This document shows positions 43,694 to 60,843 of a stretch of DNA of 64,000 nt, in pieces. Where the stretch lies: NCBI GenBank assembly GCA_021848345.1, contig JAJZUV010000001.1, forward strand, positions 248,001-312,000, in the 5' to 3' direction. This DNA is from Pseudomonadota bacterium. GTDB taxonomy: Bacteria; Pseudomonadota; Gammaproteobacteria; Burkholderiales; Burkholderiaceae_C. The stretch's first letter is position 1; every line of letters begins with the position of its first letter. The translations under genes were made by a program, and so were the position numbers. A model generated the notes under the pieces. That model saw only the letters and a program-made list of their open reading frames with translations. It had not been told where the DNA came from and ran no database searches.

Positions 43694-45121
43694 TCACAAT
43701 CGCTCGTCGCGCAGGTAGTACCAGCGGTACAGGAAGCGCTGCCCCAGGCGGCGCATCGGGGCCAGCAGGGGCGAGCGCACGAGGTCGAAGGCGTTCGGAT
43801 ACTCGAGTTCGCCGGCGTAGATCGGAAGGTCCAGCACCGGCGGTGCCTTGCCCGCGACGCGCTGGGCCATGCGCCGTCCGGCGTGGGCCGAGAAGGACAC
43901 GCCGTTGCCGCCGTAGCCCAGGGCGTAGAACACCTGTTCGGCCGGATCGGGCTGGGTGATGCGGGGCATCATGTCGTGGCTCACGTCCACCCATCCCCAC
44001 CACGAATAGTCGATGTCGATGCCCCGCAGCGCGGGGAATTTGCGGTGCAGACCGTCGATCAGCAGCCGCAGGTGCCGGGGGTTGGGCGCGTCGGCTCCGG
44101 TGATCGAGCTGCGGCTGCCGATCTGCACCCGGCGGTCGGGCAGCAGGCGGTAATAGAAGCGCAGCGTGCGGGTGTCGGTGATCACCTCGTGGGTGCGAAA
44201 GCCCGTGGCCTCGATCTCCTCGTCGCGCAGCACCCGCGTGACCAGGGAGTTGGACAGGATGGGCAGGATCTTGTTGCGCAGCCGCGGGTGCAGCGCGTTG
44301 CTGGTGTAGCCGCCGGTGGCGAAGGCCACCGCGCGCGCGCGCACCACGCCGCCCGGGGTGTGCAGCAGGTAGCGGCCCTTCGAGCCCTCGAAACGCGTGA
44401 CCGGGCTGGCCGTGTGGATGCGCACGCCGAGGGCGCGCGCGGCGCGCTGGTAGGCGAAGGCCAGTTTCAACGGATGCACGCCGATGCCGTCGGGCTCGTG
44501 CAACGCCCCGCTGCATTCGGCGTCGCGCACGTAGCGTTCATGCACCTCCCCGCGGCTGAGCATGCGGGTGTCGTAGCCGAACACTTCCCGCATGACCCGA
44601 GCCTCGTTGCGCAGGAAGTCCATCTTCTTGTCCCGATGCGCGATGTACAGATGCCCGCCGGGCTGGGGCTCGCACTCGGGGAACTCGGCCACCAGGGACT
44701 TGAAGGTGTCGAAGCCCTCGCGGATCTCGCGGTCCAGGCGCAAGGCGGTCTCGCGCCCCCAGCGCGCGATCCACTGCGAGCGATACAGGCGGCCGCTGGC
44801 GTTCTGGCCCTGTCCGCCGTTGCGGCTGGTGCAGCCCCAGGCGGTCTGGTTGGCCTCCAGCACGGTGGCGCGGATGCCGTGTTCGCGCGCCAGGAACAGC
44901 GCGGTGGAAAGACCGGTGAAGCCCGAGCCGACGACCGCGACGTCGACCTCGATGTCGCCCCGCACCGGGCCGTCGTCGTCCGGCGGCGTGCCCGCCGTTC
45001 CCACCCAGTAGGTGGGCGCGTAGGCCTTGCCCTGGCCCGGCGTGGAGTTCACCAGCGGGTCGTAGCGTGGGTCGTAGGGGGACTGCGGGGAAGGCGGTGC
45101 GTGATCGGCGGAAACATTCAT
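43694..45121 (-). CDS. tauY: FAD-dependent amine oxidoreductase, TauY-like (taurine dehydrogenase large subunit candidate)
   Basis: A DadA/PuuB-type flavoprotein of 475 residues. The dinucleotide motif VAVVGSGFTG lies at about 61-70, followed by VLEANQTAWGCTSRNGGQGQN, a stretch shared by amine-oxidising flavoenzymes. The proposed role is oxidative deamination of taurine to sulfoacetaldehyde and ammonia with electrons passed to the respiratory chain. Support comes from its neighbours: a TauABC-type importer, a TauR-like regulator, and Xsc and Pta at the end of the same region. By sequence alone it could also be a gamma-glutamylputrescine oxidase or another amine dehydrogenase. It is divergent from the NTF2-fold gene, with a 382-base motif-rich control region between. 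Confidence 0.62.
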   Translation of the reverse strand: MNVSADHAPPSPQSPYDPRYDPLVNSTPGQGKAYAPTYWVGTAGTPPDDDGPVRGDIEVDVAVVGSGFTGLSTALFLAREHGIRATVLEANQTAWGCTSRNGGQGQNASGRLYRSQWIARWGRETALRLDREIREGFDTFKSLVAEFPECEPQPGGHLYIAHRDKKMDFLRNEARVMREVFGYDTRMLSRGEVHERYVRDAECSGALHEPDGIGVHPLKLAFAYQRAARALGVRIHTASPVTRFEGSKGRYLLHTPGGVVRARAVAFATGGYTSNALHPRLRNKILPILSNSLVTRVLRDEEIEATGFRTHEVITDTRTLRFYYRLLPDRRVQIGSRSSITGADAPNPRHLRLLIDGLHRKFPALRGIDIDYSWWGWVDVSHDMMPRITQPDPAEQVFYALGYGGNGVSFSAHAGRRMAQRVAGKAPPVLDLPIYAGELEYPNAFDLVRSPLLAPMRRLGQRFLYRWYYLRDERL

Positions 45122-45203
45122 GGGAGTCGTGCCCGAGGATTCAAGGAAACCCGTGGAGACATGGGTTTACGAGCCATGATAGGGGCCGATTTTGCGCGGG
45201 GAT

Positions 45204-45430
45204 GGAGCCAGATCGGAACAAAATGATGGTCCAGATTCGGTGCATCCCGCGCACCATAATCGAACACTCGATTTCCGCGCCGCACAATCCAGGTGCGGAG
45301 TCCGGCGATCGGAGAATCGTCGGGGTTTACCAGATCGGTGGAAACCCGAGTTTTCAGGGCGAAGGCCAAGGGATTCGCCCAGCAAGATCCGGGCCGCCGA
45401 TCTGGACCAATCAAAAGCCACGAACTGGAT
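45204..45430. promoter_or_regulatory. Repeated CCGATCTGG boxes between tauY-like and tauX-like genes
   Basis: The 382-base divergent gap (45122-45503) holds no gene but four copies of one motif. CCGATCTGG reads on the minus strand at 45208-45216 and 45330-45338 and on the plus strand at 45397-45405. A CCGAATCTGG variant lies on the minus strand at 45231-45240. Two copies continue as CTGGACCA, and a further CTGGATCTAC follows at 45425. The CTGGAC core resembles published TauR sites (CTGGACYTAA). I propose these are operators for the MocR-type regulator. Confidence 0.5.
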
Positions 45431-45503
45431 CTACACAGCCGAGGCCGCGCATCACTATATTGAAAAAACCGAACACATCGCCAAAACCGCGGGGCTGTTG
45501 AAT

Positions 45504-45881
45504 ATGAATCCCACCGTAGATACTCTCCAGGCATTTTCGGATGCGTGGAACGCCCATGACCTGGAACGCTTGATGAGTTTCATGGCCGATGACTGCGTAT
45601 TCCATGCGGTGGGCGGCCCGGACGTGCTGGGCCGCAGTTTCCGCGGCCGCGACGAGGTGCGTGCCGGATTCGAACTGGCCTGGAAGACCTTTCCCGACGC
45701 GGCCTGGCTGGACCCGGTGCATTTCGTCTGCGGCGAGCGCGGGGTCACCGAATCGACCTTTCGCGGTACCCGAGCCGACGGTGTGCGCATCGAGGCGCGC
45801 ATGGTCGACGTATTCACCTTCGCCGGCGGCCGCATCGCGGTGAAGAACGCATTCCGCAAGGAACGCACCCCCGCTCGCTGA
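45504..45881 (+). CDS. tauX: NTF2/SnoaL-fold protein, TauX-like (taurine dehydrogenase small subunit candidate)
   Basis: A 125-residue single-domain protein of the SnoaL/NTF2 alpha+beta-barrel type. It begins TLQAFSDAWNAHDLERLMSFMADDCVFHAVGG, then RSFRGRDEVRAGFELAWKTFPDAAWLDPVHF and ends ARMVDVFTFAGGRIAVKNAFRKER. Members bind small ligands or serve as partner subunits. It heads a run with the TauC-like permease 14 bases downstream and is divergent from the TauY-like flavoprotein. To my recollection the small TauX subunits of taurine dehydrogenase have this fold, which would make the pair functional partners, but I cannot check that here. Confidence 0.55.
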   Translation: MNPTVDTLQAFSDAWNAHDLERLMSFMADDCVFHAVGGPDVLGRSFRGRDEVRAGFELAWKTFPDAAWLDPVHFVCGERGVTESTFRGTRADGVRIEARMVDVFTFAGGRIAVKNAFRKERTPAR

Positions 45882-45895
45882 CGGAGGCACCTTCG

Positions 45896-46747
45896 ATGAG
45901 CGCGATTCCCGAACAGCAAGGCCAGAACATGAACGTCTCCGCGCCACCCCCCTCCGCCCGTCCCGGGCGCAGGGTTCGCCTGAAGCTGGCGCCGCAGTGG
46001 ATCACCGTGCTCGTGCTGCTGGGCGCGCTGGTGGTGTGGCAACTGGTGGCGGTCGCGGGGGTGTTCCCGCCCTTCGCGTTGCCCTCGCCGGTGGCGGTGT
46101 GGAAGGCCTTCGTCGGCATCCTGCGCCAGGGCTACGGCGGGCAGTCGCTGAGCGCCGACATCGGCATCAGCTGCTTTCGCATCCTGATCGGATTCGTCGG
46201 CGCCATCGTCATCGGGGTGCCGGTGGGCCTGCTGATGTCGCGCAACAAGGTCGTGTTCGACATCATCGATCCGCTGTTGCAGTTCGTGCGTCCGGTGCCG
46301 CCGCTGGCCTACATCCCGCTGCTGGTCGTGTGGTTCGGCATCGGCGAATTGCCGAAGGCCATCCTGATTCTCGTGGGCACCATCCCGGTGATCATCATCG
46401 GCACCATCTCCGGGGTGAAGAGCACGCCGCCGCTGCGCGTGTCGGTGGCGCGCACGCTGGGCGCCAGCCATGCGCAGATCTTCCGCAAGGTGATCCTGCC
46501 TTCGGCGCTGCCGGAGATCTTCACCGCCATGCGCGTGGGCATCGGCGTGGCCTGGACCTGCCTGGTGGCGGCCGAGCTGATCGCCGCCAGCAGCGGGCTG
46601 GGCTGGCTGGTGCAGTTCGCCGGACAGGCGCTGCAGGTCAGCATCGTCATCGTCGGCATCGTGATCATCGGGCTCATCGGCTACGCGATGGAACTGGTGA
46701 TCCGCAAGATCGAGACCCTGGTCGTGCCCTGGCGCGGGCACAACTGA
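45896..46747 (+). CDS. tauC: TauC-type sulfonate/taurine ABC permease
   Basis: A 283-residue inner-membrane permease of the nitrate/sulfonate/taurine ABC group with about six helices after a polar N-terminus. The first helix is TVLVLLGALVVWQLVAV. The coupling loop is VARTLGASHAQIFRKVILPSALPEIFTAMRVGIG, with the EAA glycine. Starting at 45896 there is a GGAGG site nine bases upstream; an internal ATG at 45929 is less likely. The order here is permease, binding protein, ATPase. The substrate is inferred to be taurine from the surrounding genes; other alkanesulfonates are possible. Confidence 0.82.
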   Translation: MSAIPEQQGQNMNVSAPPPSARPGRRVRLKLAPQWITVLVLLGALVVWQLVAVAGVFPPFALPSPVAVWKAFVGILRQGYGGQSLSADIGISCFRILIGFVGAIVIGVPVGLLMSRNKVVFDIIDPLLQFVRPVPPLAYIPLLVVWFGIGELPKAILILVGTIPVIIIGTISGVKSTPPLRVSVARTLGASHAQIFRKVILPSALPEIFTAMRVGIGVAWTCLVAAELIAASSGLGWLVQFAGQALQVSIVIVGIVIIGLIGYAMELVIRKIETLVVPWRGHN

Positions 46748-46804
46748 TCCATTCCTCCAAGGCCCGCAGGGCTTCGATTCCATCCCCAACGCAGGAGAGA
46801 GCAC

Positions 46805-47824
46805 ATGAACAAGCGATCCTGGATGCGCGGCGCGCTCGCCGCCTGCACCCTGGCGGCAGGCCTGGTCCCGGTGGCGGCCATGGCCGCCGACAAGCCCGAC
46901 GTGATCATCGGCTACGAGAACAACGGCGCCGATCCGTACATGGTGTCGATGGCACGGCACCTGTTCGAGAAGACCATGGGAGCCGACGTGCAGTACAAGC
47001 TGTTCAGCTCCGGGCCGGCGGCGATGAGCGCGCTGGCCTCCAACAGCCTGACCTTCATGTGCGGCCTGGGCGTTCCCCCGCTGGTGACCGCCATCGCGCA
47101 GGGACTGCCGATGACCATCGTGTACAACCAGGAGCGCTACACCACGGCCGCCGGCATCGTGGTCAAGCCCGCCAGCGGCATCACCAGCGTGGCCGGGCTG
47201 AAGGGCAAGAAGATCGCCATCGTCGCGGGTTCCCAGTCCTCCTTCGAGCTGGCCACCTTCCTCGCCGAGGCGCACGTGGCCTATGACTCGGTGACCCAGA
47301 TCAACATGGCGCCGCCGCAGATGCGCACTTCGTGGGTGACCGGCGCGATCGACGCGGCCATCGTCTGGGACCCGGTGTTCAGCGCCCTGCAGGCCGCCGG
47401 CGGCAAGGTGCTCAAGACCGACGGGGACCTGCCGCGCACGGCCTCCAGCTACAACGTGTGCATCGCCGACTCCAAGTGGGCGGCCGCGCACCCGGCGCTG
47501 GTGCGAGGTTTCGTCGCTGCCATGGACGAGGGCTACCAGATCACCCGCAAGGATCCGGAAAAGGCGCTGGCCGACATGGCGCGCGAGACCGGGGTCACGG
47601 TGCCGGTGGCGCGCAAGGAGCTGGCCGGCTACGAGCTGTTCTCGGGCGCCGACCAGGTCTCGCCCAAGGGCATGGGGCAGGGCGCCGGCGTGAAGACCTC
47701 GGCCACCTACATGACCCTGGTGAACACCGCCAAGGTGCTGCAGCAGATCGGGCGCATCCAGCAGGTTCCGGCGAGCTTCGCGGACAACGTGGCCCCGCAG
47801 TACTCCGAGCACCTGACGCATTGA
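46805..47824 (+). CDS. tauA: TauA-type periplasmic sulfonate-binding protein
   Basis: Periplasmic solute-binding protein of the NMT1/SsuA/TauA family, 339 residues, with a signal peptide (about 1-27, cleavage after AMA). The mature start DKPDVIIGYENNGADPYMVSMA replaces the usual TVAY/IGYQ block. TSWVTGAIDAAIVWDPVFSALQAAGGKVL is the TauA/SsuA signature near the ligand cleft. A ribosome site lies at AGGAGAGA just upstream. It is followed by a stable hairpin and then the ATPase gene. The binding-protein class is firm; taurine as ligand is an inference from context. Confidence 0.82.
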   Translation: MNKRSWMRGALAACTLAAGLVPVAAMAADKPDVIIGYENNGADPYMVSMARHLFEKTMGADVQYKLFSSGPAAMSALASNSLTFMCGLGVPPLVTAIAQGLPMTIVYNQERYTTAAGIVVKPASGITSVAGLKGKKIAIVAGSQSSFELATFLAEAHVAYDSVTQINMAPPQMRTSWVTGAIDAAIVWDPVFSALQAAGGKVLKTDGDLPRTASSYNVCIADSKWAAAHPALVRGFVAAMDEGYQITRKDPEKALADMARETGVTVPVARKELAGYELFSGADQVSPKGMGQGAGVKTSATYMTLVNTAKVLQQIGRIQQVPASFADNVAPQYSEHLTH

Positions 47825-47840
47825 TGCAGCGTTTGAACCG

Positions 47841-47862
47841 CGGGGCGGCGCGAGCCGCCCCG
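47841..47862 (+). promoter_or_regulatory. RNA hairpin between tauA and tauB
   Basis: CGGGGCGGC (47841-47849) pairs perfectly with GCCGCCCCG (47854-47862) around a GCGA tetraloop, in the 52-base gap after the binding-protein gene. It has no U-tract. It probably protects the tauA transcript end, as similar hairpins do after other binding-protein genes. Confidence 0.6.
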
Positions 47863-47876: not shown

Positions 47877-48614
47877 GTGAACATCGTCATCGATTCCCTG
47901 TACAAGACCTTCGGCTCGACCACCGCGCTGGAGAACATCAACCTGCAGTTCCAGGGTGGCGAGTTCGTCACCGTGCTCGGGTCCTCCGGCTGCGGCAAGA
48001 CCACGCTGTTGCACCTGCTGGCGGGTCTCACGACGCCGTCGCGCGGGGCCATCTACATCGACGGGGAGGTGAAGAGCCGGCCCGGGGCCGATCGCGTCGT
48101 GGTGTTCCAGCAGGCGGGGCTGTACCCCTGGCTGAACGTGCAGGACAACATCGAGTTCGGGCTGGAGCTGCAGGGCATGCCGCGCGACAAGCGCCGGCGG
48201 GAAAGCTCCGAGATCCTGCGCATCATCGGTCTGGAGGGCTTCGCGCGCCACAAGCCCTACGAGCTGTCCGGCGGCATGCAGCAGCGCGTGGCCATCGCCC
48301 GCGCGCTGGTGATGAAGCCCAAGGTGCTGCTGATGGACGAACCCTTCGGCGCGCTGGACGCGCAGACCCGCGCCTCCATGCAGTCCTTCCTCACCTCGCT
48401 GTGGGAAAAGCTGCAGTGCACCATCGTGTTCATCACCCACGACATCGACGAGGCGATCTTCCTGGGCACGCGTCTGGTGGTGTTGTCGGCGCGGCCCGGC
48501 AGGGTGGCGCTGGACGTTCCCATCGAACTCGAACGTCCGCGCACGCCGGAGACCACCTTCGAGCCGCGATTCCTGGAGCTGAAAAAGCAGGCCATGGGCA
48601 TCCTGGCGCATTGA
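47877..48614 (+). CDS. tauB: TauB-type ABC transporter ATPase
   Basis: ATP-binding subunit of the taurine-type importer, 245 residues. Walker A is GSSGCGKTT (about 35-43), the Q-loop is VVFQQAGLYPWLNV, the signature is LSGGMQQRVAIARAL, and Walker B is VLLMDEPFGALDAQTR with the switch His in FITHDIDEA. GLYPWLNVQDNIEFGLE and the DAQTRASMQ block are typical of the nitrate/sulfonate/taurine ATPases. The start is a GTG at 47877. The operon ends here: a hairpin-rich repeat begins six bases after the stop. Confidence 0.87.
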   Translation: MNIVIDSLYKTFGSTTALENINLQFQGGEFVTVLGSSGCGKTTLLHLLAGLTTPSRGAIYIDGEVKSRPGADRVVVFQQAGLYPWLNVQDNIEFGLELQGMPRDKRRRESSEILRIIGLEGFARHKPYELSGGMQQRVAIARALVMKPKVLLMDEPFGALDAQTRASMQSFLTSLWEKLQCTIVFITHDIDEAIFLGTRLVVLSARPGRVALDVPIELERPRTPETTFEPRFLELKKQAMGILAH

Positions 48615-48919: not shown

Positions 48920-50413
48920 TTACAGGCTTTGTAGAGTCTTACCCAGCAGCGCGATGCCGGGTTCGATGGCCTTGTCGAGGATCGATTGCCAGCCCAGGCG
49001 CAGGAAGGAGCCGGGGGCAGGTTGCTGGAAGAAGAATACGTCGCCGGTCTCGATCAGCACTCCGGCGGCGGCCGCGCGACGTGCCAGCTCGCCGGTGTCG
49101 ACGCCGTCGGGCAGGCGCAGCCAGCAGGATCCGCCGCCGATCACGGGGGTGACCACGCACTGCGGCGCGTGCCGCGCCAGCGCCTCCAGCGCGGCGCGGC
49201 TGCGCTGCTGCTGGGCCATGGCGATGCGCCGCAACTGGGCGTCGTGGTGTCCCAGGGAAAGAAACAGCGCGAAGGCCCGCTGCACGAAGGCCGAAGGATG
49301 GCGCAGCATGAGCCGGCGCAGCGCGCGGAACTCCCGCGCCAGCGGGGCCGGGGCCACGATGTAGCCCAGACGAAGCCCGGGCGCCCAGCTTTTGGACAGG
49401 CTGCCGATGTAGATCACGCGATGGTTGTGGTCCAGGCTCTTGAGCGCCGGAATGGGTTCGCCGCCGAAGCGGTTCTCGCTCTCGAAATCGTCCTCGATGA
49501 TGATGCGGTCGTGGCGGTCGGCCCATTGCAGCAGGCGCCGCCTGCGCTCCAGCGGCATGGTCACGCCGGTCGGGCACTGGTGGCTGGGCGTGACGTACAG
49601 GTAGTCGGCCTCGCGCAGGCGCTCGTCCACCGGCAGGCCGTCGGCATCGACGTCGATGGGCAGCAGGCGCGAGGTGCGCGCGGCGAAGATGTTGCGCGCG
49701 TCGGGATAGCCGGGGTTTTCCAGCGCGAGCGTGGTGTGTTCCCCCAGCAGCAGGTCGGCCGCCATGTATAGCGCGTGCTGCGCGCCCACCGTGACCACGA
49801 TCTCGTCGGCCTGCGCCCACACCCCGCGGCGCGGCAGCACGCGGGTGCGGATCTGCTGCACCAGGGTTTCGTCGTCGCGGTTGATGTGATCGGGCGCCCA
49901 GTCGCGGATGTCCAGCACGGACAAGGCCTTGAGGCAGCACTCGCGCCAGTTGGCGGTGGGAAACAGCGAGGCGTCGAACTGCCCGTAGAGGAAGGGGTAG
50001 GGGAATTTCTGCCAGTCGGCCGGTTTGTGGATGCTGCGCTGGCGCGTCGGCTGCAGGCGCAGGCGGCGTTCCCAGTCGGCCGGCGCCATGGCCGCGTCGC
50101 CGTTCGCGGTGCCGGGTTCGCGCGCGCGCAGGCCGGCGACGAATTCCGCGTTCACGAAATGCCCGCTGCGCTGACGCGACAGCAGGTAGCCCTCGTCGGC
50201 GAGTTGCTTGTAGGCCAGCACCACGGTGTTGCGCGCCACGCCCAGCTGCTCGGCCAGTTCGCGCCCGGACGGCACCGGAGTGCCCGGATCGATCATGCCG
50301 TCCAGGATCGCCGACACCAGCATCTCGCGGATCTGGCCCTGCAGGCTCAGGTTGCTGCGTGCGCTGCGTTGCAGCAGTTGCTTCCACAGCAGGGTGTTCG
50401 TGCGGTGGTTCAT
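48920..50413 (-). CDS. tauR: MocR/PdxR-type GntR transcriptional regulator, TauR candidate
   Basis: A 497-residue fusion of an N-terminal GntR winged helix and a C-terminal aminotransferase-like domain. The winged helix (about 20-90) carries GTPVPSGRELAEQLGVARNTVVLAYKQLADEGYLLSRQRSGHFV. The PLP-binding lysine is Lys341 in IYIGSLSKSWAPGLRLGY, and NPGYPDARNIF and IIIEDDFESE are further fold-type I blocks. TauR of Rhodobacter is a MocR regulator that activates taurine genes, and this gene lies between the TauCAB-like operon and the sulfoacetaldehyde genes. It is read in the same direction as sauS, 55 bases beyond it, so it is probably co-expressed with that gene. Confidence 0.75.
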   Translation of the reverse strand: MNHRTNTLLWKQLLQRSARSNLSLQGQIREMLVSAILDGMIDPGTPVPSGRELAEQLGVARNTVVLAYKQLADEGYLLSRQRSGHFVNAEFVAGLRAREPGTANGDAAMAPADWERRLRLQPTRQRSIHKPADWQKFPYPFLYGQFDASLFPTANWRECCLKALSVLDIRDWAPDHINRDDETLVQQIRTRVLPRRGVWAQADEIVVTVGAQHALYMAADLLLGEHTTLALENPGYPDARNIFAARTSRLLPIDVDADGLPVDERLREADYLYVTPSHQCPTGVTMPLERRRRLLQWADRHDRIIIEDDFESENRFGGEPIPALKSLDHNHRVIYIGSLSKSWAPGLRLGYIVAPAPLAREFRALRRLMLRHPSAFVQRAFALFLSLGHHDAQLRRIAMAQQQRSRAALEALARHAPQCVVTPVIGGGSCWLRLPDGVDTGELARRAAAAGVLIETGDVFFFQQPAPGSFLRLGWQSILDKAIEPGIALLGKTLQSL

Positions 50414-50468: not shown

Positions 50469-51902
50469 TCAGGCGAGCCCGTGGCGCCTGCGGTACGCGC
50501 CGAACATGTCGTCCAGGGTCGGCTCGTCCGGCGTGCACGGCGTGGATACGCGCGTGATGTTGAGATAGTGCTTGTAGTTCAGGTTATCAGAGATGCTGTT
50601 GCGCCCCCAGGTGCCGCAGCCCATGGACAACGAGAAGGGCAGTCCGTTGTCGAAGCTGCCGCCGGTCGCGAAGCAGTGGGCCTGGTTGACGATGATGCGG
50701 CAGGCCGGCATGCCCAGGCCCATGCGCAGCGCGCGCTCCGGGAGCTTGGAATGCAGTCCGATGGAGTGGCCCGCGCCTTCGTGGGCGTAGATCGCGCGCA
50801 CGATGTCCTGCGCGTGCTCGAAGTCGCGGGCGCGGTACACCGTCAGCACGGGGGAGAGCTTTTCGCCCGAGAAGGGATGCTGCGCTCCGGCGCCGGTCTC
50901 CTCCACCATCAGGAAACGCGCGCGCTCGAAGGCCTCGCCCTGCAGTCCGGCCAGCGCGGCGATCACCGGCGCCGCCTTCGCGGTGACCGCGGGCGACAAC
51001 TTTCCGGCGGGCCACATGGTGTCCTGCAGTCGCTGCTTCTGCGCCGCGTCCAGCAGCACGCCGCCCTGGGCGCGCAGCGCGTCGAGCATGGCGTCGTACA
51101 CGGCATCGACGATCACCACGCTGTTCTCGGAGGAACAACTGGTGGCGTTGTCGAAGGTCTTGGAGCGCCGGATCTTCTCGGCCGCCTGTGCCAGTTCGGC
51201 CGTCTCGTCGACGATCACGGCCACGTTGCCCGCGCCCACGCCGATCGCCGGGGTTCCGCTCTCATAGGCCGCGCGCACGTTGTTCTGCGAGCCGGTCACC
51301 ACGACCAGGTCCACCTGGCGCATCAACTCCTGCGTGGCCGCCTTGTTCACGGGCGCCGGCAATTGCTGCACCAGGTCGCGCGGCGCGCCCACGCGATCGA
51401 GTTCCTCGGCGATGTAGCGCAGCAGCAGGGTGCTGGTGCCGTAGCCCTTGGGCGATGGCGCCAGGATCACCGCGTTGCGCCCCTTGAGGGCGTTGATGAT
51501 CTTGTTGGCCGGCGTCGCGCCGGGGTTCGTCGACGGCGTCACCGCGCCGACCACGCCGACCGGGCGCGCGATCTCGATCACGCCCTTGGCCTTGTCCTCG
51601 GCGATCACGCCCACCGACTTCGCGCCGCGCAGGTCGCGCAGCAGGCCGAGGGTCTTGCGGTGATTCTTGATCACCTTGTCCTCGACGTTGCCCAGGCCCG
51701 TGTCGGCCACGGCGAGCTCGGCCAGCGCGCGGTTGCGCGCCGGCTCCATGATCGCCCAGCCGACGGCCAGCACCACCTCGTCGACCCGCTGCTGGTCGTA
51801 GCTTTCGTAGGCCTGCTGCGCGGCGCGCGCGCGCGCCACGCATTCGGCCACCTGGCGACGCACGGCGTCGAGCTCGGGGGAGGGGGATGTCTTCATGTCC
51901 AT
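50469..51902 (-). CDS. sauS: Acylating sulfoacetaldehyde dehydrogenase, SauS-like
   Basis: CoA-acylating aldehyde dehydrogenase of 477 residues. Its proposed job is to reduce sulfoacetyl-CoA to sulfoacetaldehyde, feeding Xsc. The catalytic thiol is Cys256 in FDNATSCSSENSVV, and the nucleotide-binding run is PVGVVGAVTPSTNPGATPANK. The family also includes EutE/AdhE acetaldehyde dehydrogenases, but the size and the adjacent ligase, Xsc and Pta genes favour SauS as in Cupriavidus necator. The ATG at 51902 has a GAGGA ribosome site. An IclR gene precedes it by 71 bases and the MocR gene follows, all on the minus strand. Acetaldehyde or another aldehyde cannot be excluded by sequence alone. Confidence 0.78.
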   Translation of the reverse strand: MDMKTSPSPELDAVRRQVAECVARARAAQQAYESYDQQRVDEVVLAVGWAIMEPARNRALAELAVADTGLGNVEDKVIKNHRKTLGLLRDLRGAKSVGVIAEDKAKGVIEIARPVGVVGAVTPSTNPGATPANKIINALKGRNAVILAPSPKGYGTSTLLLRYIAEELDRVGAPRDLVQQLPAPVNKAATQELMRQVDLVVVTGSQNNVRAAYESGTPAIGVGAGNVAVIVDETAELAQAAEKIRRSKTFDNATSCSSENSVVIVDAVYDAMLDALRAQGGVLLDAAQKQRLQDTMWPAGKLSPAVTAKAAPVIAALAGLQGEAFERARFLMVEETGAGAQHPFSGEKLSPVLTVYRARDFEHAQDIVRAIYAHEGAGHSIGLHSKLPERALRMGLGMPACRIIVNQAHCFATGGSFDNGLPFSLSMGCGTWGRNSISDNLNYKHYLNITRVSTPCTPDEPTLDDMFGAYRRRHGLA

Positions 51903-52783: not shown

Positions 52784-52886
52784 GGCTTTTCGGCTGGACA
52801 CGGCAGGCGGTGGTTCGGAGTGGGTAGGGCGGGGCGCGAAGCGGACCGGTAGCCCATGAACTGAACTGTATCCAGTTCCTGGCGCG

Positions 52887-53079: not shown

Positions 53080-54681
53080 ATGAACCGTCCCGAAAGCCCC
53101 TTCGCACAAGCCCTGCTGCCCGCCGAGGGAGGACCCGCGTGCAGCATCCAGGCCCTGGTGGACGCGAACGCCCTGCGCGCCCCCGGCGCGACCTACTTCG
53201 TGGCCACCGACACCGGGCGCGAGATCAGCTTCGCCGAGTTGCAGCGCGTGTGCGCGGAACTGGGTTCGCTGTTCGCCTCCCACGGGCTGGGCCAGGGCGA
53301 CGTGGTGTCGCTGTTCCTGCCCAATGGCGTGGAAGCCGCGATGCTGATCCTGGCCGCCATGTACCAGGGGATGGTGATCAATCCCATCAACCTGTTGTCG
53401 CAGCCCGCGCAACTCGGCTACATCCTGGAGCACAGCGAGACCCGCCTGGTGCTCACCCTGCCGGAGCACGAGAGCCTGTTGCGCGGCCTGGCCGCGCGGT
53501 TGTCGCGCGAGCTGCATGTCGAGGTGATCGGCGACGCCGGGTGGCTGGACCGCGCGCGCGGCGCGGCGCGCCAGCCGGCGCGGACGCCCGCGCTCGACGA
53601 CGCTGCGCTGCTGATGTACACGTCCGGCACCACCGGCACGCCCAAGGGAGTGCTGCTCAGCCACGGCAACCTCTGCGCCAACGGCGTGAACATCAGCCGC
53701 GAGCACCTGCTGGGGCCGGGCGATCGGGGCCTGGCGCCGCTGCCGCTCTATCACATCAATGCGCTGGTGGTGAATCTGGTCACCCCGCTCGCGCATGGAG
53801 GTTCGCTGGCGATGCCGGCGCGCTTCTCGGCCTCGAGCTTCTGGCGCGATGCGCTGCGCTTCCAATGCACCTGGGTGAACGCGGTGCCCACCATCATCGC
53901 CTACCTGATCCAGTCCGCGCCGTCCGAGCTCGGCCCGCGCGAGCTCGCGGGCATCCGCTTCTGCCGTTCGGCCTCGGCGGCGCTGCCGCCCGAGCACCAT
54001 CGCGCCTTCGAGTCGCGCTTCGGCGTGGACATCATCGAGACCATGGGGCTGACGGAAACCGCCGCCCCGTCGTTCAGCAATCCGGTACAGCGCGAGCTGC
54101 GCAAGATCGGCAGCATCGGCAGGCCCTCGGGTACCGAGGCCCGCGTGGTCGGCGCCGACGGCGCGGTGCTGAAGGACGGCGACGTGGGCGAGATCCAGTT
54201 GCGCGGCGCAAACGTGATGCGCGGCTACCTGAAGAATCCCGAGGAAACCGCCAAGGCCTTCACCGCCGACGGCTGGTTCCGCACCGGCGACCTCGGCTAT
54301 CGCGACGCCGACGGCTACTACTTCATCACCGGACGCGCGAAGGAGCTGATCATCAAGGGCGGCGAGAACATCGCGCCGCGCGAGATCGACGAAGCCCTGC
54401 TCAAGCATGCCTCGGTGCTGGAAGCCGCCGCAGTGGGCGTGAAGGACAGCAACTACGGCCAGAATATCGAGGCCTACCTGGTGCTGCGACCGGGCGCGGA
54501 GGTGCAGGAACAGGAATTGCGCGAGCACTGCTTGCAGCACCTGGGTCGGTACAAGATGCCCAGGGCATGTCATATCGTCGACGATCTTCCGCGAGGGCCG
54601 TCGGGAAAGATCCAGCGCCTGAAATTGACCGAACTTCCGGCGGAGGCCGTGCGACGCTCCCTGCGTCTGCACCCCGCCTGA
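53080..54681 (+). CDS. sauT: AMP-forming acyl-CoA ligase, SauT-like (sulfoacetate-CoA ligase candidate)
   Basis: ANL-superfamily ligase of 533 residues that would activate sulfoacetate with ATP and CoA to sulfoacetyl-CoA for the SauS-like enzyme. The P-loop is YTSGTTGTPKG at 180-190, the hinge/adenylate block is GWFRTGDLGYRDADGYYFITGRAKELIIKGGENI, and the catalytic lysine is Lys510 in PSGKIQRL. The start ATG at 53080 (MNRPESPF) lies after the divergent control region. The next genes are a complete TctCBA importer. Relatives activate oxalate, malonate or aromatic acids, so the substrate call depends on the sauS-xsc-pta neighbourhood. Confidence 0.7.
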   Translation: MNRPESPFAQALLPAEGGPACSIQALVDANALRAPGATYFVATDTGREISFAELQRVCAELGSLFASHGLGQGDVVSLFLPNGVEAAMLILAAMYQGMVINPINLLSQPAQLGYILEHSETRLVLTLPEHESLLRGLAARLSRELHVEVIGDAGWLDRARGAARQPARTPALDDAALLMYTSGTTGTPKGVLLSHGNLCANGVNISREHLLGPGDRGLAPLPLYHINALVVNLVTPLAHGGSLAMPARFSASSFWRDALRFQCTWVNAVPTIIAYLIQSAPSELGPRELAGIRFCRSASAALPPEHHRAFESRFGVDIIETMGLTETAAPSFSNPVQRELRKIGSIGRPSGTEARVVGADGAVLKDGDVGEIQLRGANVMRGYLKNPEETAKAFTADGWFRTGDLGYRDADGYYFITGRAKELIIKGGENIAPREIDEALLKHASVLEAAAVGVKDSNYGQNIEAYLVLRPGAEVQEQELREHCLQHLGRYKMPRACHIVDDLPRGPSGKIQRLKLTELPAEAVRRSLRLHPA

Positions 54682-54772: not shown

Positions 54773-55765
54773 ATGCTGCACACATCGATTCGAGAAGGCG
54801 ACGCGCCGCGAGCGTCATGGACGGGGCGCCTGCGCAAGGCCGCGGTCGCGCTGGGCCTGGCCGCGGCGTTGCCGCTGGCGCACGCGGCCTATCCCGACCA
54901 CCCGATCAACTTCATCGTGCCCTGGGGCGCGGGCGGCGGCGCGGACCTGCTGGCGCGCACCTCGTCGAAGATCATGGAAAAGCAGCTCGGCGTATCGCTG
55001 CCCGTGATCAACGTGCCCGGCGCCGACGGCGTGGTGGGCATGACCAAGCTGCTGACCTCTCCGGCCGACGGCTACAACGTGGCCGTGCTGATCGGCGACA
55101 CTTTCGCGCTGCTGACCGGCAAGAACCCGCCGTTCAAGCTCAACCAGATCATTCCGCTGGCCATCATGATCCAGCAGCCTTCGGGTTACTGGGTGAATGC
55201 CAAGGGCCCGTGGAAGACCTGGCAGGACGTGGAGAACGCCGCCAAGAAGAAGACCCTCACCGTCGCGGTGACCGGCTTCGGCAGCGCGGACGACATCACC
55301 ACCCGCTACCTGGCCCACAAGCTGGGCATCAAGCTGGAGTCGGTGCCCTTCGCCAAGCCCGGCCAGCGCTACAGCTCGATCCTGGGCGGCAATGCCGACA
55401 TCGTGTACGAGCAGACCGGCGACGTGCGCAGCTACTTCGACTCCGGCAAGTTCCGTCCGGTGCTGTTCTTCTATCCCAAGCCGGTGCCGATTCCCGCCTT
55501 CGCCAAGGTGCCGGTGTCGGGCCAGCTCGGGCTGGACGTGACCCTGCCGCAATTCCGGGCCATCGTGGTCAAGGCCGGCACGCCGCCGGACCGCGTGAAG
55601 AAGCTGGCCGACGCGCTGGCCAAGGTGGCGCAGACCCCGGAGTTCAAGGCCTACCTGAACCAGCAGTACGCGGATCCGAACAGCTACGTGCCGATGCAGA
55701 ACGCCGATGCCTTCATGGCCGGCTGGCTGCGCCAGGCCGAGCACACGATCGAGATCTCGAAGTGA
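54773..55765 (+). CDS. tctC: Tripartite tricarboxylate transporter binding protein (TctC family)
   Basis: Periplasmic binding protein of the TTT importer family, 330 residues with a signal peptide (about 1-38, cleavage after AHA). The mature start AYPDHPINFIVPWGAGGGADLLARTSSKIMEKQLG is the Bug/TctC signature, with the carboxylate-binding loop PWGAGGGADL. It has an AGGAGA ribosome site. TctB and TctA follow, so the importer is complete. Family members carry citrate and many other carboxylates. Placed directly after the SauT-like ligase, sulfoacetate is the natural guess for ligand, but there is no direct evidence. Confidence 0.85.
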   Translation: MLHTSIREGDAPRASWTGRLRKAAVALGLAAALPLAHAAYPDHPINFIVPWGAGGGADLLARTSSKIMEKQLGVSLPVINVPGADGVVGMTKLLTSPADGYNVAVLIGDTFALLTGKNPPFKLNQIIPLAIMIQQPSGYWVNAKGPWKTWQDVENAAKKKTLTVAVTGFGSADDITTRYLAHKLGIKLESVPFAKPGQRYSSILGGNADIVYEQTGDVRSYFDSGKFRPVLFFYPKPVPIPAFAKVPVSGQLGLDVTLPQFRAIVVKAGTPPDRVKKLADALAKVAQTPEFKAYLNQQYADPNSYVPMQNADAFMAGWLRQAEHTIEISK

Positions 55766-55820: not shown

Positions 55821-56351
55821 ATGTCCACCAGCATGCTCAAGCGCGTGATCCCGTACCTGATCACGCTCGCGCTGGCCGTGTTCCTGTACCTGCAGGCCGA
55901 CCAGTTCCCCGTTCTCACGAGCGCCCGCATGCCGGGGCCGGACCTGTGGCCGAAGATGATCTGCGTGCTGCTGGCCGCGGTATCGCTGATCGGACTGGTG
56001 GGCGCGGCCTTCGCCTCGGGTGACGCGCAGGAGGTGGAGCCCGTCGACGAGGCGCTGGTCTCGCCGCCCGAGACCCACCCCTACCTGGTGTGGATCGGCG
56101 TGGCGGCCACCGGCCTGTACGTGGGCGCGATGCCCTACCTGGGCTTTTTCATCGCCACCGTGCTGTTCGCGGCGGCCTTGCTGCTCATCGGCGGCATGCG
56201 CCGCTGGGCCTGGCTGGCGCCCACGGCGCTGGTGCTGTCCGGGGTGTTCACGCTGCTGTTCATGAAGGTCGTGTACGTGTCGCTTCCGCTGGGCGTCGGA
56301 GGCTTCAAGCAGGTGTCGCTGCTGGTGTTCAAGCTGATGGGGATCCACTGA
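55821..56351 (+). CDS. tctB: Tripartite tricarboxylate transporter small membrane subunit (TctB family)
   Basis: Small membrane subunit of 176 residues with about four membrane segments (first VIPYLITLALAVFLYL at 9-24). It has the typical ARMPGPDLWPKMICVLLAAVSL block between helices one and two. A poorly conserved acidic cytoplasmic or periplasmic loop (DAQEVEPVDEALVSPPETH) precedes helix three. Its stop overlaps the tctA start by one base (TGATG), so both membrane subunits are made together. The low conservation of TctB proteins makes order and context the main evidence. Confidence 0.8.
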   Translation: MSTSMLKRVIPYLITLALAVFLYLQADQFPVLTSARMPGPDLWPKMICVLLAAVSLIGLVGAAFASGDAQEVEPVDEALVSPPETHPYLVWIGVAATGLYVGAMPYLGFFIATVLFAAALLLIGGMRRWAWLAPTALVLSGVFTLLFMKVVYVSLPLGVGGFKQVSLLVFKLMGIH

Positions 56352-57907
56352 TGTACGTACTCCACGATCTGGCCATCGGGCTGATGCACGTATTCCAGCC
56401 CTACGACCTGCTGATGCTGGTCGTGGGCATCCTGGTGGGCATGCTGGTGTCGATCATGCCCGGACTGGGTTTCGTCATGGGGGTGATCCTGGCGCTGCCC
56501 TTCACCTACAAGATGCAGATCGAGCCGGCGGTGATCCTGCTGACCTCGATCTATTTCTCCGGCACCTACGGCGGCTGCTTCACCACCATCCTCTACCGCA
56601 TCCCGGGCGAGCCCAACGACGTCCCGCTGCTGTGGGACGGCTACACCATGGGCCAGCGCGAGGGCGCGGCCAAGCCGCTGGGCTGGGCGCTGGTCGCCGC
56701 GCTGATCGGCGGCCTGGTGTCCTCCGCGGTGATGGTCGCGCTGACCCAGCCGCTGACCGACGTGGCGCTGAAGTTCAATTCCGAGGACTATTTCGCCGCC
56801 ATCGTGTTCGGCCTGACCACGGTGGTGTCGCTGGCCGGCAAGTCCCTGGTCAAGGCCTTCGTCAGCCTGTGCCTGGGCCTGCTCGTGGCCTGCATCGGCG
56901 TCGACAGCATCTACGGCGTGAGCCGCTACACCTTCGGCGTTCCGATCCTGGGCGACGGCGTGCAACTGGTCGCGGTGCTGGTGGGCATGTACGGCCTGGG
57001 CGAGGTGTTCAAGCGCATCGGCCAGGGCCTGGCCATCAAGGGCTCGCCGGCCGGTGCCAAGCTCAAGGTGCAGACCAGCTTCCCGCGCCTGCGCGAGATC
57101 TGGGGCGTGCGCGGCGCCATCCTGCGCAGCAGCGCGCTGGGCACTCTGCTCGGCGTGGTCCCGGGGGCCGGCGCGACCATCACCTCCTTCATCTGCTACG
57201 GCGTGGAAAAGCAGTACGGACGCGAGCGCGCCAAGCTCGGCACCGGCCACCCCAGCGGCATCGTGGCCCCGCAGATCGGCTCCACCGCGTCGGTGGCCGG
57301 ACACCTGATCCCCATGCTCACGCTGGGCATTCCGGGCAGCGCGGCCACCGCGGTGATCCTGGCCGCGTTCCTGTTGCACGGGGTGCAGCCCGGGCCCATG
57401 CTGCTGTCGGATCCGGCCTCGCGCGTGACGGTCTACACCATCCTGGCCTCGATGTTCGTGGCGGTGATCGGCATGTGCCTGATCGGGTTCTTCTGGATCC
57501 GCCTGGTGGTGCGCGTGCTGCTGATCCCGCAGTACCTGCTCAACGCCATCGTGGTGCTGTTCTGCCTGGTAGGCGCCTATGCCGACCGCAACTCCATGTC
57601 CGACGTCTGGATGATCCTGATCTTCGGCGTGCTGGGCTACCTGTTCGAGAAGTTCCGCTTCCCGATCTCGCCCATGGTGCTGGGGGCGATCCTCGGGCCG
57701 ATCGGCGAGACCAACTTCATGCGCAGCATGGTGGTGCATCACGGCAACTGGACCGCGGCGTTCACCGAGCCGCTCAGCGGAACCCTGCTGGCCATGTCCG
57801 CCTTCGCGGTGTTCTACCCCGTCACGCGCGAACTGCTGCACTGGCTGCGCCGGCGCGCGCGCCGCCCGGCGATCGCCGGCACCGCTTCCAGCAGTCCGCA
57901 TGGTTGA
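56351..57907 (+). CDS. tctA: Tripartite tricarboxylate transporter large membrane subunit (TctA family)
   Basis: Main transport subunit of 518 residues with about twelve membrane segments. Family blocks are LVGMLVSIMPGLGFVMGVILALPFTY near the N-terminus, YFSGTYGGCFTTILYRIPGEPNDVPLLWDGY, GVVPGAGATITSFICYGVEKQ and HLIPMLTLGIPGSAATAVILAAF. The paired PGLG and PGAG loops are the family hallmark. A strong terminator follows, so the sauT-tctCBA unit ends here. This is the only complete secondary importer inside the sulfoacetate arm. Confidence 0.88.
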   Translation: MYVLHDLAIGLMHVFQPYDLLMLVVGILVGMLVSIMPGLGFVMGVILALPFTYKMQIEPAVILLTSIYFSGTYGGCFTTILYRIPGEPNDVPLLWDGYTMGQREGAAKPLGWALVAALIGGLVSSAVMVALTQPLTDVALKFNSEDYFAAIVFGLTTVVSLAGKSLVKAFVSLCLGLLVACIGVDSIYGVSRYTFGVPILGDGVQLVAVLVGMYGLGEVFKRIGQGLAIKGSPAGAKLKVQTSFPRLREIWGVRGAILRSSALGTLLGVVPGAGATITSFICYGVEKQYGRERAKLGTGHPSGIVAPQIGSTASVAGHLIPMLTLGIPGSAATAVILAAFLLHGVQPGPMLLSDPASRVTVYTILASMFVAVIGMCLIGFFWIRLVVRVLLIPQYLLNAIVVLFCLVGAYADRNSMSDVWMILIFGVLGYLFEKFRFPISPMVLGAILGPIGETNFMRSMVVHHGNWTAAFTEPLSGTLLAMSAFAVFYPVTRELLHWLRRRARRPAIAGTASSSPHG

Positions 57908-57960
57908 AGGACGGGGCGCCCCTCGGGGTGCTTCATCCGCATCGAGTCGTCGCGGTTTTC

Positions 57961-57996
57961 AGGGCCTCGTCGCGCATGCGCACGAGGCCCTTTTTT
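57961..57996 (+). terminator. Rho-independent terminator after tctA
   Basis: AGGGCCTCGT (57961-57970) pairs with ACGAGGCCCT (57982-57991) and is followed by a run of T residues (57991-57996). It lies about 55 bases after the tctA stop and before the convergent pta gene. Confidence 0.88.
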
Positions 57997-58027
57997 GCGC
58001 CCCGGGCCGTGGCGGGCGCCGTGGAGC

Positions 58028-59026
58028 TCAGGCCACGGTGGCGTCGGCTCGGGTGGCGATGGCCGCCAGCGCGACCGAGGCCACGCGCGCGGTGAGGGAG
58101 TCGGCGCGCGAGGTCAGCACGATGGGTACGCGCGCGCCCAGCACCAGCCCGGCGCAATCGCCGCCGCCGACGTAGACGAAGCTCTTGTAGAGCATGTTGC
58201 CGGCGTTCAGGTCGGGCACCACCATGAGGTCGAAGTCGCCGGCGTGGCCGGATTCGATGTGCTTGGTGCGCGCCGCCTGGGCCGAAAAGGCGTTGTCGAA
58301 GCCCAGCGGGCCCTCGATGCCGGCGTCGCCCCAGCGCCCCTCACGACCCAGGCGCACCAGTTCCTGCGCGTCCAGCGTGGCGGCGATGGCCGGGTTCACG
58401 GTTTCCACCGCGGCCACGACGGCCGCGGCGGGGCGCTGCACGCCGATGCGACGCAGCAGGTCCAGCGCGTTGCCGACGATGTCGAGCTTGGATTTCAGGT
58501 CCGGCGCGATGTTCACCACGCAGTCGGCCAGGGCCAGCAGCTTGTGATAGCGGGGCAGGTCGAACACGAAGGCGTGGCTGATGCGCGTGTTCGAGCGCAG
58601 GCCCGTTTCCCGATGCACCACTGCGGACATCAGTTCGTCGGTGTGCAGCGAGCCCTTCATCAGCGCGCGCAGCGTGCCGTCGCGGGCGAGTTCCACCGCG
58701 CGGGCGGCTGCCGCCTGCGGGGCGGCGTCGGTGTCGACGATCTCGAAGTCCCGCGCATCCAAGCCGGCCTTCTCGGCAGCGGCCTCGATCAGGCGCCGAC
58801 AGCCCACCAGCACCGGCTGCGCGACACCCTCGTCGCGAACCAGACCGGCCGCCTGCAGCGCCAGGGCGTCGCAGGGATGCACCAGGCCGATGCGCGCGCG
58901 CTCGCACGAGGCGATGAACCGCGCGCGCTCGATGAGTTGACGCAGGCGCGGGAACTCGCGCGACAGCCCCGGGGCACCCCGGGGCTGCTCGCTCGCCCCG
59001 CCGCGGGGGGCGGGCGGCGTGTTCAC
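58028..59026 (-). CDS. pta: Phosphate acetyltransferase (short form)
   Basis: Converts the acetyl phosphate made by Xsc to acetyl-CoA. It is 332 residues, the short phosphate acetyl/butyryltransferase type found beside xsc. Motifs seen are LMKGSLHTDELMSAVV, RISHAFVFDLPRYHKLLALADCVVNIAPDLKSK, GPLGFDNAFS and GNMLYKSFVYVGGGDCAGLVLGARVPIVLTSRADS. The start is a GTG at 59026 that overlaps the xsc TGA (GTGA), so the two enzymes are translationally coupled. The butyryl-type family resemblance leaves acyl specificity open, but the coupling with xsc makes acetyl phosphate the likely substrate. Confidence 0.87.
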   Translation of the reverse strand: MNTPPAPRGGASEQPRGAPGLSREFPRLRQLIERARFIASCERARIGLVHPCDALALQAAGLVRDEGVAQPVLVGCRRLIEAAAEKAGLDARDFEIVDTDAAPQAAAARAVELARDGTLRALMKGSLHTDELMSAVVHRETGLRSNTRISHAFVFDLPRYHKLLALADCVVNIAPDLKSKLDIVGNALDLLRRIGVQRPAAAVVAAVETVNPAIAATLDAQELVRLGREGRWGDAGIEGPLGFDNAFSAQAARTKHIESGHAGDFDLMVVPDLNAGNMLYKSFVYVGGGDCAGLVLGARVPIVLTSRADSLTARVASVALAAIATRADATVA

Positions 59027-60843
59027 ACGTAGTCCTTGTACTTGTCGAGGAAGCGCACCGGCTTGCTCAGGGCGTCGCGCCGGAACGGATCGCCCAGCTC
59101 GCGGGTGCACATGATCTCGATCACGCAGGTCTTGCGCTGGTTCATCTGCATGTCCACCGCGCGCTTGAGGGCCGCGCCCACGTCCTCCAGGCGATCGACC
59201 ACGATGGCCTCCGAGCCCATGGCGCGGGCGATGCCGGCGAAGCTCTCGCTTTCCAGCTCGCCGGCGACGAAGCGGCGGTTGTAGAAGTCCACCTGGTTCT
59301 TCTTTTCCGCGCCCCACTGGCGGTTGTGGAACACCACCGCGGTGACCGGGATGTCGTGGCGCACGCAGGTCATGATCTCCACCATGCTCATGCCCCAGGC
59401 GCCGTCGCCGGCGTAGGCGATGGCCGGGCGGTCCGGCGCGGCCAGCTTGGCGCCGATGATGGTGGGCAGCGCGTAGCCGCAGTTGCCGAAGCTCATGGGC
59501 GCAAAGAAGCTGCGCGGCTCCTCGAAACGCAGGTAGCTGTTGGCCACCGAGTTGATGTTGCCGATGTCGGTGGACACCATGGCGCGCGCCGGCATGGCCT
59601 TCTCGAGCTCACGCAGAACCTGGCGCGGGTGCAGGTATTCGCCACCGCTGAAGGGCTTCTCCTGCTTCGCCTCCTCGATCATGTCCAGGCTGTAGGCGTC
59701 GCGCTCGTGGGTCCAGGAATCGAGCTCCTTCTCCCAGGCCTCCTTCTCGGAGCGGATGGTCTCGGCGCGCTGGGCCTTGCTCGCGTCGCAGGCCAGGGCG
59801 CGGCCTTGCAGGCGCTGCGCGATGGCCTTCGCGGCGGCCTTGGCGTCGCCGCAGATTCCGACCGTGATCTTTTTCACCAGGCCCAGGTTGGTGTGGTCGG
59901 CCTCGACCTGGATGATCTTGGCGTTCTTGGGCCAGTAGTCCATGCCGTGCTGGGGCAGGGTGCCGAAGGGGCCCATGCGCGAGCCCAGCGCGACCACCAC
60001 GTCGGCCTGCGAGATCAGTTTCATCGCCGCCTTGGAGCCCTGGTAGCCCAGCGGGCCCGCCCACAGCGGGTGGCTGGCGGGGAAGGCGTCGTTGCGCAGG
60101 TAGCCGGTGACCACCGGGGCGCCCAGGCGCTCGGCCAGTTGCCTGCACTCCTCGACCGCGTCGCCCATGACCACGCCGCCGCCGGCCAGGATGACCGGGA
60201 ACTTCGCCTGCGCCAGCAACTCGGCCGCGTCGCTCAGGCTCTGTTCGCCGCCGGCGCCGCGCTCCACGCGCATCGGGCGCGGGATCTCGCACTGGATCTC
60301 GCCGTAGAAGTAGTCCCGCGGAATGTTCAGCTGGGTCGGGCCCATCTCGCTGATCGCGCGGTCGAAGCAGCGCCCGGTGAACTCGGCCATGCGCTTGGGG
60401 TTCACCACATGGCCCTGGTACTTGGTGAACTCCTGGAACATGGGCAGCTGGTTGGCCTCCTGGAAGCCTCCGAGGCCCATGCCCATCGTGCCGGTCTCCG
60501 GGGTGACGATGACCACCGGGCTGTGCGCCCAGTAGGCGGCGGCGATCGCGGTCACGCAATTGCTGATGCCGGGGCCGTTCTGGCCGATGACCACGCCGTG
60601 GCGCCCGCTGACGCGGGCGTAGCCGTCGGCCATGTGCGCGGCGCCCTGCTCGTGCACCACCGGGATCAGGCGGATGCCGGCGGGCGCGAAGATGTCCATC
60701 GCATCCATGAAGGCCGAGCCCATGATGCCGAAGATGTCCGTCACCCCGTTGGCGACCAGGGTTTCGACAAAGGCCTCGGAAGGGGTCATTTTTTGCACGC
60801 CGGTGACGACTTTGCGGTTGTCGGCGGGAGGGGTCTGGCTCAT
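59023..60843 (-). CDS. xsc: Sulfoacetaldehyde acetyltransferase Xsc
   Basis: Thiamine-diphosphate enzyme that cleaves sulfoacetaldehyde with phosphate to acetyl phosphate and sulfite, the key desulfonation step for taurine, isethionate and sulfoacetate. It is 606 residues with three domains. The catalytic glutamate is Glu65 in PVVHEQGAAHMADGYARVSG. The ThDP/Mg motif is YAGDGAWGMSMVEI...NRQWGAEKKNQ in the C-terminal third. The stretches MGSAFMDAMDIF and TPETGTMGMGLGGFQE are characteristic of Xsc rather than acetolactate synthase. The start is 60843. It has a near-perfect promoter upstream and is coupled to pta downstream. Confidence 0.95.
   Translation of the reverse strand: MSQTPPADNRKVVTGVQKMTPSEAFVETLVANGVTDIFGIMGSAFMDAMDIFAPAGIRLIPVVHEQGAAHMADGYARVSGRHGVVIGQNGPGISNCVTAIAAAYWAHSPVVIVTPETGTMGMGLGGFQEANQLPMFQEFTKYQGHVVNPKRMAEFTGRCFDRAISEMGPTQLNIPRDYFYGEIQCEIPRPMRVERGAGGEQSLSDAAELLAQAKFPVILAGGGVVMGDAVEECRQLAERLGAPVVTGYLRNDAFPASHPLWAGPLGYQGSKAAMKLISQADVVVALGSRMGPFGTLPQHGMDYWPKNAKIIQVEADHTNLGLVKKITVGICGDAKAAAKAIAQRLQGRALACDASKAQRAETIRSEKEAWEKELDSWTHERDAYSLDMIEEAKQEKPFSGGEYLHPRQVLRELEKAMPARAMVSTDIGNINSVANSYLRFEEPRSFFAPMSFGNCGYALPTIIGAKLAAPDRPAIAYAGDGAWGMSMVEIMTCVRHDIPVTAVVFHNRQWGAEKKNQVDFYNRRFVAGELESESFAGIARAMGSEAIVVDRLEDVGAALKRAVDMQMNQRKTCVIEIMCTRELGDPFRRDALSKPVRFLDKYKDYV

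Follow-up and report, generated by a model that had tools for sequence, protein, structure and literature searches.

A predicted C2-sulfonate catabolic island with taurine and sulfoacetate arms on one Xsc-Pta exit, next to a CobS/CobT-like gene pair

Introduction

The tau locus on pSymB of Sinorhizobium meliloti holds genes for MocR, an ATP-binding cassette (ABC) transporter, TauX, TauY, Xsc and Pta in one place, and deletion of tauR, tauC or tauY in this organism abolishes growth on taurine in each case (from an excerpt of PMC4254191). For sulfoacetate, the sauRSTU system of Cupriavidus necator H16, which we compare by description rather than by sequence, has an IclR regulator, SauS, SauT and the major facilitator superfamily (MFS) protein SauU, whereas the combination of sauST with a tripartite tricarboxylate transporter (TTT) importer is reported as a hybrid type in sponge symbionts (both from an excerpt of PMC12625764). 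The plasmids pBPHY01 of Paraburkholderia phymatum and pNK83 of Caballeronia sp. NK8 bring SauS, SauT, TauY, xsc and a CobS/CobT-like pair together within 31-42 kb. Here we analyse a stretch of 64,000 nucleotides (the window; G000:C2:248001-312000, contig JAJZUV010000001.1), in which taurine-type and sulfoacetate-type genes lie next to a single xsc-pta pair.

Homology and gene linkage make it very probable that this region is a C2-sulfonate catabolic island with taurine and sulfoacetate entry arms and one Xsc-Pta exit. Two arms on one xsc-pta are an already known kind of system, and their joining is not special to the window locus. The S. meliloti locus differs in having no sulfoacetate arm and no CobST pair in the 17 kb examined, and its Xsc is about 46-48% identical to that of the window. 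Unlike C. necator H16, the window has a TTT importer, as do the hybrid clusters in the excerpt of PMC12625764. pBPHY01 and pNK83 have another gene order and also carry a GMC oxidoreductase and an MFS gene; pBPHY01 has two xsc, and no TctA was found in the stretches of either plasmid that were examined. The island would be a clear example of sulfonate catabolism built from exchangeable arms around one desulfonating enzyme, and its main interest is the recurrent placing of a CobST-like motor pair next to genes for taurine-clade Xsc.

Two entry arms in a conserved gene order

The genome of the window comprises 3.26 Mb in 48 contigs and is 94% complete. All genes that an earlier sequence-only reading had named at 43694-60843 are present there as intact open frames, and Thiomonas sp. 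FB-6 keeps the order of 16 genes, from the MFS gene to IclR2, at 86-98% identity. The order recurs in five more congeners (G400, G405, G407, G408 and G420), so the grouping of the island genes is not due to chance. SauS of the window is 91% identical to that of FB-6, the nearest named relative found by SauS, and we infer a Thiomonas-like host. The taurine arm consists of the following features.

43694..45121, minus strand: TauY-like large subunit of taurine dehydrogenase (FAD, DAO family), by Pfam, identity to S. meliloti and a GxGxxG motif
45402..45434, plus strand: candidate TauR operator, two CTGGAY direct repeats 23 bases apart, upstream of tauX, by the consensus in an excerpt of PMC5320631 and conservation
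45504..45881, plus strand: TauX-like small subunit (SnoaL/NTF2-like), by Pfam, identity to S. meliloti and the FB-6 order
45896..46747, plus strand: TauC-like ABC permease (TauC model 222 bits, cut-off 342)
46805..47824, plus strand: TauA/SsuA-like substrate-binding protein (TIGR01728 139 bits, cut-off 163.5)
47877..48614, plus strand: TauB-like ABC ATPase (TauB model 262 bits, cut-off 357)
48920..50413, minus strand: MocR-type regulator, probable TauR (passes the PdxR model; 44% identical to the MocR of the S. meliloti tau locus)

The tauY and tauX genes diverge from a shared intergenic region, and tauCAB follow tauX. TauY and TauX are 62% and 44% identical to their pSymB counterparts, and the adjacent TauXY homologues are accompanied by MocR and ABC genes, as in S. 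meliloti. The sulfoacetate arm follows.

50469..51893, minus strand: SauS, acylating sulfoacetaldehyde dehydrogenase, exact start not fixed (NF047625 790 bits, cut-off 600)
51974..52786, minus strand: IclR-family regulator (IclR1), SauR-like, exact start not fixed, by IclR family match and the FB-6 order
53080..54681, plus strand: SauT-like AMP-binding coenzyme A (CoA) ligase, by general AMP-binding models and two intact motifs
54773..55765, plus strand: TctC, binding protein of the TTT importer (Pfam PF03401)
55821..56351, plus strand: TctB-like small TTT subunit, named from its place in the FB-6 order, no NCBIfam match
56351..57907, plus strand: TctA, membrane subunit of the TTT importer (Pfam PF01970)

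SauS clears the equivalog cut-off of NF047625 and thus belongs to this family; the IclR1 gene lies upstream of sauS, and the TctC-TctB-TctA importer comes after sauT. Among 399 Burkholderiales genomes, SauS exceeds its cut-off in 37, and Xsc occurs in 48, at 50 places. A SauT homologue is present in 31 of the 36 other SauS loci, several of the remaining ones being on short contigs. The TTT importer was considered as a unique trait and rejected, because TctA of at least 50% occurs in 9 of these 36 loci and the hybrid has been published (excerpt of PMC12625764).

Two side observations concern SauT. The congener G408 (L316, G408:C74:39300-59200) has two SauT matches, of 84% each, ahead of the TTT genes. 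On Rhodococcus plasmids pDK3 (L284, L289), the neighbours of xsc and a SauS of 60% include genes with the annotations CoA-binding protein and succinate-CoA ligase beta, which may replace SauT by an ADP-forming-type enzyme; thiS/thiazole synthase and a TauE-family gene lie there as well.

Both arms adjoin the exit genes and their upstream region.

58028..59026, minus strand: Pta-like phosphotransacetylase, overlapping the end of xsc (NF006045)
59023..60843, minus strand: Xsc, sulfoacetaldehyde acetyltransferase, taurine-clade form with a 9-residue insertion at 393-401 (TIGR03457 1057 bits, cut-off 676)
60925..60953, minus strand: candidate xsc promoter TTGACG-17-TATAGT, with TTGAC and TATA in all 11 aligned loci
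60983..60997, no strand: IclR-type palindrome TTTCAAAATTCGAAA, 6 of 7 pairs, candidate IclR2 site upstream of the xsc promoter in the window
61029..61847, plus strand: IclR2 regulator, divergent from xsc (NCBIfam scan)

Xsc clears the TIGR03457 equivalog cut-off, carries the thiamine pyrophosphate motif GDG...N, and is the only full-length Xsc in its genome. Pta clears NF006045 (362 bits vs 282) and falls short of NF008852 (342 vs 413). TauR-like repeats ahead of xsc were sought and rejected, with no CTGGAY pair there in the window. Since the region upstream of xsc has an IclR-type palindrome and no such pair, we expect one regulator per module: MocR/TauR probably controls the taurine arm, IclR1/SauR the sulfoacetate arm and IclR2 xsc-pta.

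The sequence-only reading had joined both arms to a single xsc-pta, and homology, gene linkage and the conserved candidate TauR operator agree with it. Several results weigh against this assignment. The ABC proteins match the taurine/sulfonate models below cut-off (TauA 124 of 304 bits; TauB and TauC as listed). In the NCBIfam scan the MocR regulator clears the PdxR cut-off (356 bits vs 320) and has no TauR model among its matches, and the published TauR motif, with one mismatch allowed, has no match in the island. For SauT, no dedicated model was found in the scan and only general AMP-binding models matched. One congener, G403, is without the taurine arm and keeps the sulfoacetate arm. Finally, the SorA-like (412 of 600 bits) and SorB-like (84 of 93) proteins, whose genes precede the window by about 51 kb on its contig and which might serve in sulfite oxidation, are both below their model cut-offs.

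We ascribe a putative taurine transporter function to TauABC from gene linkage. In Rhodobacter capsulatus, TauR has direct repeats of CTGGACYTAA as its binding site (excerpt of PMC5320631), and each CTGGAY repeat of the window fits this R. capsulatus consensus at 8 of 10 positions, so that a search with one mismatch misses them. The pair sits in the longest conserved stretch of the tauY-tauX intergenic alignment of three genomes, the third of which has GTGGAC in place of the first repeat. Six CTGGAY pairs of such spacing occur in the whole window; the candidate operator is therefore argued from conservation and position, not from rarity.

It is conceivable that sulfonates are processed through the taurine arm alone, and that SauST and the TTT importer lie here by chance, handling a different small acid by way of its CoA ester and its aldehyde. 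SauT, for which a specific model is lacking, scores best against general acyl-CoA ligases, the substrates of TTT importers are not readable from sequence, and 3 of the 37 SauS genomes (G048, G144, G363) gave no Xsc in the same search. SauS, however, exceeds the curated sulfoacetaldehyde dehydrogenase cut-off by 190 bits and lies within 20 kb of 21 of the 50 Xsc places, and we consider such a chance neighbourhood very improbable.

Proposed pathway and fate of sulfite

In the two-arm reading, the substrates, reactions, regulation and sulfite fate are predicted as follows. Taurine would be taken up through the TauABC-type transporter, and TauXY would oxidise it to sulfoacetaldehyde with release of ammonium. 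Sulfoacetate would enter through the TTT transporter, be activated by SauT to sulfoacetyl-CoA, and be reduced by SauS to sulfoacetaldehyde, where the two arms would meet. Cleavage of sulfoacetaldehyde by Xsc would then give acetyl phosphate and sulfite, with Pta converting the former to acetyl-CoA. The sulfite is presumably oxidised or exported by the products of distant genes, namely SoxC, SorAB-like and TauE-family proteins.

That sulfite disposal is encoded outside the island, as the sequence-only reading had expected, is borne out by the genes found elsewhere in the genome. SoxC scores 606 bits (cut-off 420), and four TauE-family proteins are encoded elsewhere; together with the SorAB-like proteins they are candidate sulfite handlers. 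The host lineage may also draw energy from the sulfite released.

An island devoted mainly to the assimilation of sulfonate sulfur or nitrogen, or to sulfoacetaldehyde detoxification, rather than to carbon supply appears unlikely to us. The presence of SoxC would suit it, as would a host lineage presumed, as a Thiomonas relative, to be a sulfur oxidiser. Use of taurine nitrogen via the same enzymes has also been described (excerpt of PMC5320631). On the other hand, Xsc-Pta would yield acetyl-CoA, and two dedicated importers seem to fit catabolism; among the island genes, to which the inspection was limited, no taurine dioxygenase was seen.

The locus had also been called a generalist C2-sulfonate island. 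This description is supported for two C2 sulfonates only: an isethionate arm was considered and rejected, since a GMC (isethionate dehydrogenase-type) gene was not seen among the identified island genes, unlike in pNK83 and pBPHY01, with the search confined to the island and not extended to the whole genome.

Clades of Xsc and distribution of the two arms

A quick tree of 58 Xsc proteins, which leaves out one enzyme of 42% (L127) and the frame-broken Xsc of S. meliloti (L086), splits into groups of 33 and 25 rows with an SH-like approximate likelihood ratio test (SH-aLRT) value of 100. The 9-residue insertion at 393-401 is common to the representatives of the first group (15 vs 19 sequences compared). 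Taking the 14 Burkholderiales places that score above 1000 bits as taurine-clade Xsc and the other 36 as the rest, TauY lies within 35 kb of 12 of the 14 vs 4 of the 36, and SauS within 20 kb of 2 of the 14 vs 19 of the 36. As judged from these counts, Burkholderiales Xsc fall into a mostly taurine-linked clade and a clade more often linked to sulfoacetate, so that in the window a taurine-type Xsc is combined with a sulfoacetate arm. With five undetermined rows left out, the Xsc tree requires 9 changes of the SauS label, implying that the sulfoacetate arm has been joined or lost repeatedly.

TauY of at least 60% is found in 19 of the 399 genomes, one of them partial. SauS and TauY occur together in six, and in three of these (G000, G064 and G387) both are within 35 kb of Xsc; the two-arm design recurs but is uncommon. 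In the genus of the window, 11 of 25 genomes have Xsc, and the complete two-arm order is found in six, i.e. G000 and the five congeners named above, while G402, G413, G418 and G422 were not scored because their contigs end.

Two genomes deserve a separate remark. In the congener G403 (L315, G403:C5:107600-127500) the MFS gene adjoins SauS directly, and the MocR gene is absent along with the taurine arm, which makes it a natural comparison strain. In G374 (L243, G374:C36:1-4038), of another family, a contig of 4 kb carries a TauY of 94% and an MFS protein of 87% identity to those of the window; no Xsc or SauS was found in this genome, and the contig is perhaps misbinned.

A CobS/CobT-like pair beside xsc

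Two further genes follow IclR2.

61874..62848, plus strand: CobS-like AAA+ ATPase, by Pfam, motifs, and model and structure-sequence alignment
62858..64000, plus strand: CobT-like VWA protein, by Pfam and motifs, running past the window end; the pair reaches G000:C2:312576

Walker motifs and motifs of the metal-ion-dependent adhesion site (MIDAS) type are readable in the pair. The CobS-like protein aligns along its length to solved CobS with 466 bits. Both proteins fall below the cobaltochelatase cut-offs (CobS 508 of 559 bits, CobT 273 of 759), and no CobN was found in the genome at its 94% completeness; assignment of the pair to a CobNST cobaltochelatase is thus not supported.

The linkage of the pair to xsc is pronounced. 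CobT (PF06213) occurs at all in only 20 of the 399 genomes; it lies within 35 kb of 12 of the 14 taurine-clade Xsc places, within 2.4 kb in 10 of these, and near none of the 36 others (Fisher p 7e-10, relatedness ignored). A CobS of 68-78% stands beside CobT in all nine inspectable loci of other genomes. Of the 10 other genomes of the genus with Xsc, all have CobS next to xsc and nine also have CobT there; in the remaining one the contig breaks off first. Ten plasmid records carry an Xsc of 80-90%, and 7 of them also encode a CobT of 42-51% no more than about 4 kb away; these seven rank first among the CobT matches of the collection. The CobST label takes 3 changes on the Xsc tree without two unknown rows, or 5 if unknown is counted as absent. 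The order and orientation of CobST relative to xsc vary between lineages, which speaks for a functional tie.

We tentatively propose that the pair is a dedicated AAA+/VWA helper (activase) of taurine-clade Xsc, an assignment that the linkage makes possible, if still short of probable. Such a helper may activate or repair this thiamine diphosphate (ThDP) enzyme through metal or cofactor loading or the clearing of dead-end adducts. CbbQO is a MoxR AAA+/VWA activase for Rubisco, and NorQD serves nitric oxide reductase in the same manner. The likeness is an AAA+ plus VWA gene pair beside the enzyme presumably served; the difference is that the window pair belongs to the CobST family and is tied to Xsc by gene linkage alone. 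Since the CobS-like protein is close to true CobS, recruitment of the pair from a chelatase is likely.

The linkage is patchy outside Burkholderiales: 1 of 3 in a class sample, 1 in Photobacterium and 0 of 3 in Rhodococcus. The class sample, of 158 genomes, adds three Xsc of 78-81%, with CobST adjoining only in G564; G464 and G469 have SauS near their similar Xsc instead of CobST. In the two of three Rhodococcus plasmid records inspected, CobST was not found near xsc, and no AAA+/VWA substitute is annotated beside it. Within Burkholderiales, CobT is missing from the vicinity of the taurine-clade Xsc in G142 and G328, and in G158 and G314 CobT is 22-29 kb away from Xsc. As Rhodococcus, G464, G469, G142 and G328 have no CobST nearby, the pair is not required by every such Xsc.

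These genomes would also fit a plain cobaltochelatase module unrelated to Xsc, a reading that further draws on the full-length alignment to solved CobS and on the presence of CobN in 5 of the 12 Burkholderiales genomes with an xsc-linked CobT. CobN was nonetheless not found in the other 7 of the 12, nor in the genome of the window; CobT in particular is far below its cut-off, and the contrast between 12 of 14 and 0 of 36 Xsc places also speaks against an unrelated module. We regard this reading as rather unlikely.

Alternatively, CobST may be linked to TauXY, or to the use of taurine, and not to Xsc itself. In keeping with this, SauS accompanies the similar Xsc in Rhodococcus, G464 and G469, and neither TauY nor CobST was found in the stretches examined. 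By contrast, G403, in which the taurine arm is missing between the MFS gene and SauS, still keeps xsc and CobST; Cupriavidus campinensis has CobST with xsc and no TauY in 42 kb; and four Xsc of the other clade with TauY within 35 kb have no CobT.

If the pair does serve Xsc, biochemical work on taurine-clade Xsc may miss a partner, 'cobalt chelatase' labels beside xsc would mislead, and CobST-type machines would serve a second client beyond cobaltochelatase. Among the literature matches listed, no paper addresses a CobST-Xsc link; in the excerpt of PMC4334477, CobST and Xsc terms occur in unrelated places. For taurine and sulfonate in Thiomonas, the matches listed were metagenome papers.

Island edges

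The MFS, IclR2, CobS-like and CobT-like genes are island neighbours outside the region covered by the sequence-only reading. The first of them marks the other edge.

42304..43653, plus strand: MFS transporter, frame start not fixed, at the island edge, by Pfam MFS_1; conserved beside the island in FB-6 and congeners

Its identification as SauU was rejected, as comparison with the MFS protein adjoining sauST in pNK83 gave short and weak matches only. It is 53% identical to the MFS protein that adjoins the GMC oxidoreductase in P. phymatum pBPHY01. At the opposite end, past the window on G000:C2, cobT is followed by an amino-acid-type ABC transporter comprising SBP_bac_3, permease and ATPase genes (L170:5752-8187).

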